NCBI RefSeq assembly: GCF_022899935.1
Contig: NZ_JALJCJ010000001.1
Coordinates: 1,138,053 to 1,202,052 of the forward strand
Direction: 5' to 3'
Source: Shinella curvata
Lineage (GTDB): Bacteria > Pseudomonadota > Alphaproteobacteria > Rhizobiales > Rhizobiaceae
Length of the DNA stretch: 64,000 nucleotides
A model generated the notes under the pieces. It had not been told where the DNA came from. It made no database searches and was given only the letters and a program-made list of their open reading frames with translations. Numbering within the stretch: position 1 is the first letter of the stretch; each line of letters starts with the position of its first letter. A program made the position numbers and the translations under genes. This document shows positions 60,127-64,000 of the stretch, in pieces.

Positions 60127-60144
60127 TTTTTTGTCAAAATCGTT

Positions 60145-61077
60145 CTAGGCCAGGAAATCCAGCGCGGTCAGTTCCAGGTTGTTGGAAAGCTTGATCTGAA
60201 GATCAACAACGCCATCCCCATCAACGTCGCCCTGAATATACGTCCCTCCCTTTTTCGAGATGAACGAACGCAATTCACCCGGCGTATCGCTGAAGGCGGA
60301 CGTCCCGATGAAGGTGAATGCCTGATCACCGGATAATTCGGCGTCCGCATCGATCTTCGCCAGGTCGATGATGTCGTCGGCGCGGTTGAACTGGATGATG
60401 GTGTCAAAAGCAGACACCGTGCTGTTGGACACACGGTCGAAGATGAACGTGTCCTTTCCGGAGCCTCCCGACAGGATGTCTCGGCCGCCACCACCATAAA
60501 GGCGGTCGAGCCCCGCACCGCCATAAAGCTTGTCATCCCCCAGACCGCCATGCAGAAAGTCATTGCCATCGCCGCCAAAGAGCTCATCCCTGCCGGCCCA
60601 CCCCAGCAAGGAATCATTGCCGCCATTGCCGGAGAGTACGTCGTCTCCTCCATATGCTCTTACGACATCTCGTTTCTGCCCCCCTCCGAACGTGTCGTTC
60701 CCCGAGAAAATGACGGAAAAAAGAAGCGCGTCATCCATCGTTTCTTTGCTGACACCGGCATCAAAGACGGCTTTCGCCGAAACCCTGAAACCCGTCATGT
60801 CCTCAGTATTATAAATATTCCAATCCAGTAATTCCAAATCATACGAGTGATATTCCGTAAAATATCCGCCAACAATCCGTCCTTTCGAGTCGTATTTCAA
60901 ATCCACGCCGGAAAAAGAACTACGCCCTCCAGTTTCATCGTAGTAGGTTGCGAGGCCGTATTCGGTGCTCGTTCGTATTACGGTCGTGTATGGCCCATTG
61001 TTTGGCTCCTTGAAACCACCGAACCAGACATGCGGAGTCACGATCCGAGCATTCCCATCCGCCAAATAGGTCACCAT
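60145..61077 (-). CDS. RTX (haemolysin-type calcium-binding) protein
   Basis: 310 aa. Residues about 143-209 hold seven GGxGxDxLx nonapeptide copies (GGNDSLLGWAGRDELFGGDGND and so on). The C-terminal LTALDFLA end fits a type I secretion signal. The N-terminal ~140 residues match no known enzyme domain to me. RTX proteins are exported by ABC/MFP/TolC type I systems, none of which is nearby. GGGGG lies 7 bases before the ATG at 61077. Convergent with iolG and adjacent to the island boundary. Confidence 0.85.
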   Translation of the reverse strand: MVTYLADGNARIVTPHVWFGGFKEPNNGPYTTVIRTSTEYGLATYYDETGGRSSFSGVDLKYDSKGRIVGGYFTEYHSYDLELLDWNIYNTEDMTGFRVSAKAVFDAGVSKETMDDALLFSVIFSGNDTFGGGQKRDVVRAYGGDDVLSGNGGNDSLLGWAGRDELFGGDGNDFLHGGLGDDKLYGGAGLDRLYGGGGRDILSGGSGKDTFIFDRVSNSTVSAFDTIIQFNRADDIIDLAKIDADAELSGDQAFTFIGTSAFSDTPGELRSFISKKGGTYIQGDVDGDGVVDLQIKLSNNLELTALDFLA

Positions 61078-61393
61078 ATCAGCCCCCTTTCATCTCCCCT
61101 TCAGCAGCCACAATGTCGCCGAAGCACTTACGGTCACGCTGGATCGTATTCGCGGCATATGACGTAATTTTCACACTGATCCGGTGCGGAAATACCGACG
61201 ACGGTGCCGATCACGTTTCATATCCATGGATGGCTCGCTTGCCCGCATTACCCAGCAATCCTCGACGCGTCAGGAGACTTTTCAAGGAGGTTGAAGTCGG
61301 GGCAGCAGCTGCAGCAGGCAGCACAGGCCCACCCCCGTCACAGGGCACAGCCAGACAGAGGTGGCATGATCATTTCAAAAATGCGTGCTTAAA
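61078..61393. other. intergenic stretch between the RTX gene and the tRNA fragment
   Basis: 316 bp without a gene I can support. An open plus-strand frame here (61113-61475) runs into the antisense of the tRNA fragment and gives the well-known false peptide DRIRTCDLWNR. No convincing promoter or repeat. This is probably the original downstream flank of the tRNA gene. Confidence 0.6.
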
Positions 61394-61438
61394 TGGCGCA
61401 CCCGACAGGATTCGAACCTGTGACCTTTGGAATCGGAA
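61394..61438 (-). tRNA. 3' fragment of a tRNA gene (att site), anticodon loop to CCA
   Basis: The minus strand reads from the anticodon loop (TTCCGAT, 61432-61438) through the anticodon 3' stem, variable loop AGGTC, T-arm ACAGG-TTCGAAT-CCTGT and acceptor CGGGTGC-G-CCA. A 5' half that would complete the fold is absent: the bases before TTCCGAT do not pair with TCCAA. The loop would place CCG as anticodon, so tRNA-Arg(CCG) is likely. Tyrosine-recombinase integration at tRNA 3' ends leaves exactly such a fragment at one island end, with the intact gene at the other. Confidence 0.8.
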
Positions 61439-61816
61439 ATGGTTATCCATGGTTCTAAGCTATTGTTTTATATGATGTACGCTCGAAACTGGACTGGAAC
61501 TGCGCTACCTTGCGCTCCTCTGCGGTCAAGAGGAAATTAGCTCAGTGGAGAAATTTTTAGCACGGCAAATCCGCGTCATCGGAATTGGTTGTCCATGGTT
61601 CTAAGCTTTTGTTTTCACCGAACTTAGATCAATACTGGACTAGGAATGCGCTACCTTGTGCGCCAGCACCGGATCGGAAACTAGCTCAGCACCGGCGACT
61701 GAAAATGGCCTGAAAGCCGGTCGCGCGTTAGCTGTGATCGGAACTGAAAGACAAGGCCTCGAAGTATTTGAAATATAATAGCCTGAATCAGCCGTGTGCT
61801 GCATCTGTGCTACCTT
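61432..61816. repeat. three-copy island-end repeat (ATCGGAA ... GCTACCTT)
   Basis: ATCGGAA is at 61432, 61578 and 61737; GCTACCTT at 61504, 61650 and 61809. In all three copies the two motifs start exactly 72 nt apart. Copies 1 and 2 are 146 bp apart and share much of the intervening sequence (TCCATGGTTCTAAGC, TTGTTTT, ACTGGACT); copy 3 is degenerate. The first ATCGGAA is the tRNA anticodon-loop sequence. TAGCTCAG, resembling a tRNA D-arm, precedes copies 2 and 3. No gene is found between 61439 and 61823. Confidence 0.7.
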
Positions 61817-61823
61817 CGAGCGC

Positions 61824-62786
61824 TCAATTCGGTAGCCAATCGTATTCGAGAGGGTAATAATCTCGCCGCGCCTTAATCATAGCTCCCCTTGGCCGACTCT
61901 CTGCCTGTTCCGGAACAATAAGTTCGCTTAAGGTCTGGTCGATGAAGCGTCTGGAGCTTTCGTCGTCGTGCGCGGCCGCTAAGAATTCGGGTTTGATGTG
62001 TATGCGATACTCGTTGTCGAACCATAGCTGGTGTGCATCATAAGCAGCATGATGATTGTGACATAAGGGAACTCCGTTCCATACCTCATCTTCAGATCCT
62101 GGCGCGGAAACAGGGTAAATGTGTGCGCCCGCCAATAAGCCTAGCTTAAGGCCACACATCGCACACCTGTGGCCGTAGGCCTGCTTAACCTTTTTACTGA
62201 AAGCAGCGTCTCTTACGTATGAAGAAATGGTACGGCGAGCGCGCTCTCCGCTTTCAGCGTCGTTTTCTTCGATAACGCCCGCTGCTTTCGCTGCATCAGA
62301 AACCTGGGCGGTGGGAATTATAACGTGGTTATCCAGCATCTCCAGCAGGGCCGGAAGCAGCCGCGGTCGAAGCGCAAATATCTGTTCTCCCGTGTTCGAG
62401 GTGTATTGGCTCCACCCATTCTGACTAGCTTCCTGAACAATCCGATGATTGAACAAGATAGAAAATCTGGCCGTTCTCCCGACTCGTGACGTCCCGTCAA
62501 CAACCACAAGTATTTGCTGCCCGGTTGTCTCATCGATGCCGATCAGTAGGGGTTTGTGACCCTCAGGTTCTTCAACTGCCTGAGAATTTGCAGGATTTTG
62601 AAATCGCCATTCATAATCCTTGCGGTTATGCGAACTGGTTTTCGAGAGATGTGCCGCTACAGGCCGGTCACCTGTTGAAGTTGTCACGGTGAGCCGTGAG
62701 GGCCAGCCGTCGCCCAAATTTGTTATGGCGGCTACTTCATGGCCGACGGCGGCGGCCATGGTGCTAGCGAGGTCAGCTCTTGACAT
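61824..62786 (-). CDS. HNH endonuclease, probable restriction enzyme
   Basis: 320 aa from the ATG at 62786; an upstream TTG at 62816 is possible. The HNH/zinc module is near residues 208-246: CAMCGLKLGLLAGAHIYPV (Cys208, Cys211, His222) and NGVPLCHNHHAAYD (Cys242, His245). The N-terminal ~150 residues, with YEWRFQNP and LLIGIDETTGQQILVVVDG and ARFSILFNH, look like a target-recognition domain of HNH restriction proteins, but I do not know the exact family. It follows the C5 methyltransferase by 36 bp, the usual R-M arrangement. G+C is lower than the chromosome. Confidence 0.75.
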   Translation of the reverse strand: MSRADLASTMAAAVGHEVAAITNLGDGWPSRLTVTTSTGDRPVAAHLSKTSSHNRKDYEWRFQNPANSQAVEEPEGHKPLLIGIDETTGQQILVVVDGTSRVGRTARFSILFNHRIVQEASQNGWSQYTSNTGEQIFALRPRLLPALLEMLDNHVIIPTAQVSDAAKAAGVIEENDAESGERARRTISSYVRDAAFSKKVKQAYGHRCAMCGLKLGLLAGAHIYPVSAPGSEDEVWNGVPLCHNHHAAYDAHQLWFDNEYRIHIKPEFLAAAHDDESSRRFIDQTLSELIVPEQAESRPRGAMIKARRDYYPLEYDWLPN

Positions 62787-62822
62787 GGAAACCCGATAAG
62801 TGATGCGGCTTGGCAAGCTGAT

Positions 62823-64000
62823 TTAGCTTGCGACAGCTACCTTATCTTTGGTTGTCTGTGCGTCAATCAACTGCACGCGGCTTTCCACAAGAGCGCGTGG
62901 AGATAGCAACGGAAACGGATACGTGCACAAAGTGCGTTCGGCACCTATGATCGCATGCGTTCTCGAGGTTCGAACATCGAAACGAACTTCTCGCAACTTT
63001 GAGACGCAATCGCGGAACTGCTGGGAATTCATTCCCACTGACGACTGAAGTTGCTTGAGATTATGAAAATCTCCGCAATTTTCAGTCTTACTAAAGAAGT
63101 TCAGAAGCTCCAAGCTTTTGTTGTCAATCAACAAATTCCAGTCCGCGTTGATTGAAACTGTGTCTCCGCGGTTCGCATAGTGACCATAAATGTCAATCAG
63201 ACTGAAAAAACGCGACCGTGCGATTAGTGCATCTTCTACTGCGGCCCAAACGTGAAACACGTCAACGAGAGATTCAACCTGGGCTGTCAGTCTGAGCGTG
63301 TCGTAATTGGGCAGATACTTCCTTAATCCGGAGATCTCCACGATTGAGACCCTGTTCGTCTTCGCTGGCCCGCGAAATTCCATCTCGATATGCGGACCCA
63401 AATCGGAACATTCTATCGAATATGCTCGTTCGCCAGATATTTTCTGGTCTGCAGCGTGCTTTGTTCGATCAAAGAGGTTCTTGGGTGCTAACCTGTACGA
63501 TTCCCTCTCTGCAACTGCAGATGGCTTATTGTGGGTGGCTGAAGCGGGATATTGCGTCGCGATCGCTTCCTTGGCAACTTCGGCGAAGCGAGCGCTTCGC
63601 AGGCGTTGCCTTTGACGAAAGGTGGATTTGAAGTTCGCCGGGCGAACTGCGAACGTTAAGTCCTGCGTGCTTTCAAGTAGCTGCTCCCTTACTGATACAG
63701 CAAGCGCATAGGCTAGGCGCGGAGGAACGGAATTGCCGATTTGTTCCAAGACCTTGGCGAAGCTTCCGACGATCTCGTAGTTATCGGGGAAGCTCTGCAA
63801 TCTCTTTAATTCTGGCACGGTAAAGTGGCGGTTCTTCCAATGAAATGGCCCCGTGAACTTTCCCGGTTGTGCCTTGATCGTTCTACATGGCGCATTTCGT
63901 TCGACCTTATACAAAAGGTCATGAAATTTCGATCGCCATGCGAAAACCGGCGCGGGATGTCCCATCTCGGCGGTGAAATATGCGTAATTGAGACCCTCTG
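62823..64000 (-). CDS. C5-cytosine DNA methyltransferase with long C-terminal extension (N-terminal part outside window)
   Basis: The frame is open to the window edge, so only the C-terminal ~391 residues are seen; motifs I-VIII with the catalytic Cys lie beyond 64000. Visible conserved parts are YAYFTAEMGHPAPVFAWRSKF, the TIKAQPGKFTGPFHW segment, motif IX (RHFTVPELKRLQSFPDNYEIVGS) and motif X (QIGNSVPPRLAYALA). About 270 residues follow motif X, with no match I recognise. Acts as modification enzyme of the R-M pair with the HNH gene. Codon use and G+C are lower than in the moc genes. Confidence 0.85.
   Translation of the reverse strand, partial: EGLNYAYFTAEMGHPAPVFAWRSKFHDLLYKVERNAPCRTIKAQPGKFTGPFHWKNRHFTVPELKRLQSFPDNYEIVGSFAKVLEQIGNSVPPRLAYALAVSVREQLLESTQDLTFAVRPANFKSTFRQRQRLRSARFAEVAKEAIATQYPASATHNKPSAVAERESYRLAPKNLFDRTKHAADQKISGERAYSIECSDLGPHIEMEFRGPAKTNRVSIVEISGLRKYLPNYDTLRLTAQVESLVDVFHVWAAVEDALIARSRFFSLIDIYGHYANRGDTVSINADWNLLIDNKSLELLNFFSKTENCGDFHNLKQLQSSVGMNSQQFRDCVSKLREVRFDVRTSRTHAIIGAERTLCTYPFPLLSPRALVESRVQLIDAQTTKDKVAVAS

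Follow-up and report, generated by a model that had tools for sequence, protein, structure and literature searches.

Near the right end of the window, the 64,000-nucleotide stretch of Shinella curvata DNA analysed here (G000:C11:1138053-1202052), a short minus-strand piece of a tRNA gene lies close to genes of restriction and modification. This raises the question whether the piece marks the boundary of a genomic island, and if so, how far the island extends and what it carries. Genomic islands that target tRNA genes by means of tyrosine integrases form a general class, in which the 3' end of the tRNA gene is duplicated at the far boundary. We conclude with high confidence that the locus is an 18.9-kb integrative element in tRNA-Arg(CCG), with the 3' 45 nt of this gene duplicated, an integrase adjoining and a slot of exchanged defence genes; the roles of integrase and cargo in recombination and restriction are predictions. 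The insertion in the tRNA gene, the duplicated 45 nt, the adjoining integrase and the empty site in relatives can be read directly from the sequences compared. As such, the finding is not unusual: it is a defence island seated in a tRNA gene, or more precisely a modular, defence-carrying integrative element of a known kind. The features that fall within the window are collected in Table 1.

Table 1. Features at the right end of the window (window positions)
Feature	Position	Strand	Basis or remark
RTX-type calcium-binding protein gene	60145..61077	-	Homology comparison; absent from G010 and G013; placed left of the island core
Displaced tRNA-Arg(CCG) 3' 45 nt, attachment core of the far island end	61394..61438	-	Exact copy of C11:1218307-1218351
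First far-end attachment module	61439..61577		~146 bp from core 1 to core 2; 89-93% alike in G009, G012 and G016
Putative integrase arm-type site ACTGCGCTACCTT	61499..61511	+	Each of the four elements has a similar site with this offset; predicted function
Second core copy ATCGGAA, start of a second, partly similar module	61578..61584		Self-match 78% over 87 nt
Putative arm-type site of the second module	61645..61657	+	One mismatch; predicted function
HNH nuclease with MTaX1 domain, 330 aa, TTG start	61824..62816	-	PF20296, PF13391
C5 cytosine methyltransferase, cut by the window edge	62823..64000	-	PF00145, 1e-60

The 45 nt are the reverse complement of nucleotides 33-77 of the 77-nt tRNA-Arg(CCG) (positions counted by hand); they begin with the opening base of the anticodon loop and run through the encoded CCA. 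A sequence-only reading had described them as a tRNA 3' piece that stops at the anticodon loop and lacks a 5' half, and both points hold: ARAGORN calls no tRNA within the 64-kb window. In a whole-genome search the 45 nt recur at a single place, C11:1218307-1218351 (45/45 identical, E 1.5e-16), which belongs to an intact tRNA-Arg(CCG) (C11:1218307-1218383, minus strand) on the same contig, 18.9 kb to the right. Identity of this degree inside the intact gene excludes a chance match. The island had been predicted to run past position 64,000 to an intact tRNA-Arg(CCG) repeating the fragment as its last 45 nt, with an integrase beside it; the tRNA gene is present, and 135 bp separate it from the start of the ORF for a tyrosine integrase of 509 aa. 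The element corresponds to C11:1199446-1218351, so that the window stops inside it. Measured from the fragment through the whole intact tRNA, it spans 18,938 bp, with a G+C content of 55.3%. The reported fall in G+C on the high-coordinate side is seen as values of 50-52% per kb at 61-64 kb compared to 55.7-68.8% over 1-60 kb, but 54.6% is already reached at 60-61 kb, where the RTX-type gene is located.

A query consisting of the tRNA and its flank finds matches in 21/21 genomes of the genus, our own included, and displaced tRNA-Arg(CCG) 3' fragments are present in at least six of them (the present genome G000, G002, G009, G011, G012 with two, and G016). The empty site was to be sought in relatives without the restriction-modification genes, and it is seen in G010 and G013. 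In these closest relatives at the locus (93% over the query), the end of the left-flank gene lies less than 400 bp from the tRNA, with no island. Homology of the left flank ends at window position 60134 (G010) or 60131 (G013), not at 61393, and resumes at the tRNA. Therefore, about 1.26 kb (about 60135-61393) with the RTX-type gene is strain-specific as well, and the earlier statement that ordinary rhizobial genes lie directly left of the fragment does not hold. Neither a whole-genome search with the fragment nor inspection by eye revealed another tRNA fragment where this stretch begins on the left. In G014, no displaced fragment is among the matches listed; letters like those of the integrase-side end of the G000 element are kept beside its tRNA, and no integrase match was obtained in the stretch examined.

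The T-stem letters of the intact tRNA-Arg(CCG) pair in all 21 genus genomes and occur in three variants (L006-L027). Fragment and intact copy carry the same variant in G000 and G011 and different variants in G002, G009, G012 and G016. Such a mismatch, observed in four of the six occupied genomes, is expected if an incoming element supplies its own 3' half. In the proposed mechanism, the integrase would recombine the core in the anticodon loop, aided by arm-type sites at the two termini; the tRNA would then be completed by the 3' half that the element brings, and the old 3' half of the host would be displaced to position 61394.

The far end of G000 and of three other elements is built of two or three attachment modules with a spacing of ~146 bp, each opened by a copy of the core. 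Within the first 700 bp, exact ATCGGAA is found at island positions 39 and 185 in G000, G009, G012A and G016. G012A has a further copy at 332, G000 has two more at 280 and 344, and G002 has the copy at 39 only. The first module was recovered from 4 of 394 family genomes sampled, including G103, where the match covers 41 nt only. With up to two mismatches allowed, G000 has five sites of the motif ACTGMGCTASCTT within the far 480 bp, two next to the integrase and a single one across the remaining 18,081 bp; the corresponding far, near and middle counts are 3, 2, 1 in G012A, 2, 2, 1 in G009 and 1, 2, 0 in G002. One far and two near sites hold constant offsets across all four elements. Because the motif was derived from these very ends, only the contrast between ends and middle and the kept offsets count as evidence. 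It may be that the series of core modules documents, in legible form, how one insertion followed another at this site.

In the island, 17 ORFs of at least 70 aa were picked by script, and all except an 87-aa ORF (16) were analysed with Pfam. From the far end onward, their order is: the HNH/MTaX1 nuclease, the C5 methyltransferase, Vsr, a TIGR04141/DUF6119 protein, a 190-aa tyrosine recombinase, a DUF6626 protein, a 197-aa protein with a replication-family match below cut-off, an HNH protein, two proteins for which no Pfam family exceeds the cut-off, a DUF2958 protein, a protein just under the DUF6641 cut-off, a NucS_C protein, the 87-aa ORF, a flagellin (559 aa), a serine recombinase (552 aa) and the tyrosine integrase (509 aa). 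The NucS_C protein matches the PADLOC candidate PDC-S02 (E 4.4e-27). The 197-aa protein has HAH and YxxKE motifs that are conserved in three elements, and by our reading of these motifs it may be named a HUH-type, replication-like protein.

The restriction-modification families were identified by Pfam, NCBIfam and PADLOC. The HNH endonuclease and C5 methyltransferase genes reported at the window end are both real, but the description as a restriction-modification pair is too narrow: beyond the window edge the methyltransferase is followed by Vsr and then TIGR04141, and the set therefore exceeds a pair. The methyltransferase itself is a 683-aa ORF that reaches C11:1202926 (L004:3876-5927) and has a C-terminal extension. 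Together, this cargo would restrict foreign DNA, with the methyltransferase marking cytosines, the HNH/MTaX1 nuclease cutting DNA according to its methylation state, and Vsr repairing the T:G mismatches that would arise from deaminated 5-methylcytosine.

Outside its own genome, the methyltransferase has two matches at E<=1e-60 among 297 sampled family genomes (38-40% identity, catalytic part only), and none at E<=1e-80 among 385 sampled genomes of the class; G010 and G013 have no relative at E<=1e-60. Relatives that carry the same restriction-modification genes without a tRNA fragment, which would have spoken against the island, were not seen in the genomes sampled. A donor of the methyltransferase was among the ideas rejected: the sole plasmid record matching most of its length was haloarchaeal (34% over 89%). 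The haloarchaeal plasmid protein shares the C-terminal extension; a large HNH endonuclease is encoded ~3.6 kb away, and none of the eight neighbouring annotated features is named Vsr.

Elements with a common backbone occupy the same tRNA-Arg(CCG) in G000, G012A, G009 and G002 and differ in the defence genes at the far-end slot. Relative to G000, the identities in G012A, G009 and G002 are 95%, 97% and 70% for the integrase, 97%, 95% and 92% for the small recombinase, 93%, 93% and 54% for the flagellin, and 74%, 75% and 80% for the DUF2958 protein; the serine recombinase is 87% identical in G012A and 89% in G009 and was not found in the G002 element. The G012A slot is made up of an N4/N6 methyltransferase, an HTH protein whose BsaWI match falls below cut-off, and a TIGR04141 relative (26%); the element additionally contains GmrSD and matches to RmrA and RmrT. 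The slot of G009 holds Mrr, HNH, Response_reg_2, HEF_HK, a C5 methyltransferase and a Vsr relative (45%), and that of G002 holds McrBC, a partial C5 methyltransferase relative (33% over 129 aa, outside the Pfam scan) and a Vsr relative (49%). As recombinases and flagellin are kept and the slot differs, the slot has been exchanged. The middle gene set of the related elements belongs to no Pfam or PADLOC family except for an AAA protein and an NMT1-like protein. An NMT1/THI5-like binding protein (L075:9600-10619 in G002, with relatives in L099 and L102) has been retained by several elements and is odd in a defence island. The integrase alignment search yielded 15 loci in named genomes, and among the 13 scanned for a neighbouring tRNA, ten have tRNA-Arg(CCG), one has tRNA-Phe, one has tRNA-Arg(CCT) and one has none.

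Several other explanations of the locus were weighed. Fragments of tRNA genes are able to persist without an element, and the 45 nt could in principle be such a decayed copy with no island involved. This is scarcely credible given the perfect identity to a tRNA 18.9 kb away with an integrase adjoining, and given that the same island end lies next to the fragment in G009, G012 and G016. A more serious alternative places the end of the element at the second core (61578) instead of 61394, and we regard it as possible, although not as the favoured reading; the same weight applies to its companion claim that the first 146-bp module is the scar of an earlier element, replaced by recombination at core copies. 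The likeness of G009 and G016 to the G000 far end indeed stops right after the second core, G012 has three core copies spaced by 146-147 bp, and the first module of G016 is 93% like that of G000 despite a nearby integrase relative that is broken and reaches just 60% identity. However, G000, G009 and G012, whose integrases are 95-97% alike, have the first module in common, which fits a module belonging to their own arm; G002 has a single core, and repeated modules could be an ordinary feature of such arms.

The class of the integrative element can be questioned as well. Its size of 18.9 kb, its integrases and the small HUH-type replication-like protein would suit a phage satellite or remnant prophage, and two of its proteins, DUF6641 (E 1.4e-17) and DUF6626 (E 1.5e-7), have matches among PHROGs of unknown function. 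Such an origin is nevertheless improbable: Pfam finds no structural or packaging family in 16/17 selected ORFs, PHROGs returns only integrases and families of unknown function for nine island proteins, integrase and flagellin have no match in 50,697 phage records, and no relative from the integrase alignment was confirmed in viral contigs. Slightly less unlikely is an integrative mobilisable element moved by conjugation, with the HUH protein as an unusual relaxase. The HUH-like motifs kept in three elements and a distant integrase relative on plasmids (43.5% at best) point in this direction, but the protein is small, its sole Pfam match is to a replication family and below cut-off, and relaxase, mating-pair and type IV secretion families are absent by Pfam from the 16/17 ORFs scanned, a set that excludes the 87-aa and shorter ORFs. 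As to the cargo, the HNH/MTaX1 protein might be a modification-dependent nuclease against foreign-marked DNA rather than the partner of the methyltransferase, which we consider a plausible minority view. Its match among solved structures is TagI, a modification-dependent enzyme, over the HNH part only, and it has a match, far below cut-off, to the phosphorothioate-dependent family NF045808; matches to the PADLOC HNH models are weak, and a single-sequence structure model (pLDDT 35) is uninformative. Against this, the methyltransferase gene adjoins on the same strand at a distance of 6 bp. The MTaX1 domain bears on both sides, since it has been proposed as a discriminator of modified DNA and is also placed in several restriction-modification systems (PMC10853773).

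The integrative element in tRNA-Arg(CCG) resembles other tRNA-targeted islands in the duplicated tRNA 3' end, the integrase at the intact tRNA, the empty sites and the exchangeable cargo. It is set apart by a far end with two or three cores ~146 bp apart, by the conserved flagellin, by an additional small tyrosine recombinase and by a serine recombinase, the last of these present in three of the four elements. As in the type II systems described in PMC8011034, the C5 methyltransferase adjoins Vsr, and the G009 element has the Response_reg_2/HEF_HK/Vsr set of that source; the HNH/MTaX1 nuclease (the putative partner) and TIGR04141 as neighbours set the present locus apart from what is described there. 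The literature searched, which falls short of most subscription journals, did not yield a description of this element family. The 45-nt fragment leads to a Rhizobiaceae element family at one tRNA, in which defence genes change and the backbone is kept; this family is a variant worth following for its exchangeable slot, its far-end modules and its kept flagellin.

The flagellin lies beyond the window (L005:3022-4701; C11:1213022-1214701) and has both filament domains; at 559 aa it exceeds the host flagellins, which measure 294-420 aa. In a tree of 27 sequences, comprising 23 of 28 matches from five genomes and four element copies from named loci, eight element copies and one long G009 orphan fall on one side of a branch (100/99) and 18 host flagellins on the other; the five weakest matches, FlgL-like in our reading, were omitted. 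The island flagellin is under strong purifying selection (dN/dS 0.068-0.081 among the G000, G012A and G009 copies). It lies near the integrase in 5/15 named loci (L098-L102, of which L100 is G002), some loci being cut by contig ends; the two genes are also close in G286, G233 and G229 and far apart in G273. Relatives at E<=1e-75 were found in 35 of 394 family genomes, a tRNA occurs within flanks of ~1.5 kb in 7 of the 27 loci scanned (30 listed), and three plasmid-borne relatives have no recombinase within 8 kb according to incomplete annotation. These results make the flagellin an accessory type that is not limited to the element. The predicted structure of a relative from Ciceribacter (L099; not the Shinella curvata copy) has a pLDDT of 55.6, and its top structural match is the S. 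meliloti filament 7sn9.

For flagellins carried by mobile elements, a tested precedent is given by the Flagellin Remodelling prophages, FRphi (PMC13418256), which likewise are mobile elements with their own flagellin in a host that has others. Compared with these prophages, the present element is not recognisable as a phage and has no TnpB/TldR family by Pfam (16/17 ORFs). Outside the flagellin gene, it has no 15-mer in common with four host flagellin loci, and on this result an RNA guide or a repressor directed at the flagellins of the host was rejected as a candidate. The kept flagellin raises the testable question whether non-phage mobile elements remodel flagella and whether this has a role in defence. 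It is conceivable, though doubtful, that the elements protect the host on two levels, with an exchangeable restriction slot against injected DNA and an own flagellin that alters the filament. As parts of this same tentative picture, the altered filament would block or divert flagellum-binding phages or change motility without the RNA-guided repressor of FRphi, and the multiple far-end cores would let elements replace each other in one tRNA. The picture is weakened by the conclusion of the FRphi authors that, in their case, resistance to phages is probably not the principal cause (PMC13418256).

Two further arrangements were observed at this tRNA. In G012 (L071, L072), two tandem islands lie behind a single tRNA-Arg(CCG), with two displaced 3' fragments, and in G016 (L067-L070) a 74-kb composite region extends from the intact tRNA to the displaced fragment, with the broken integrase relative near its far end.
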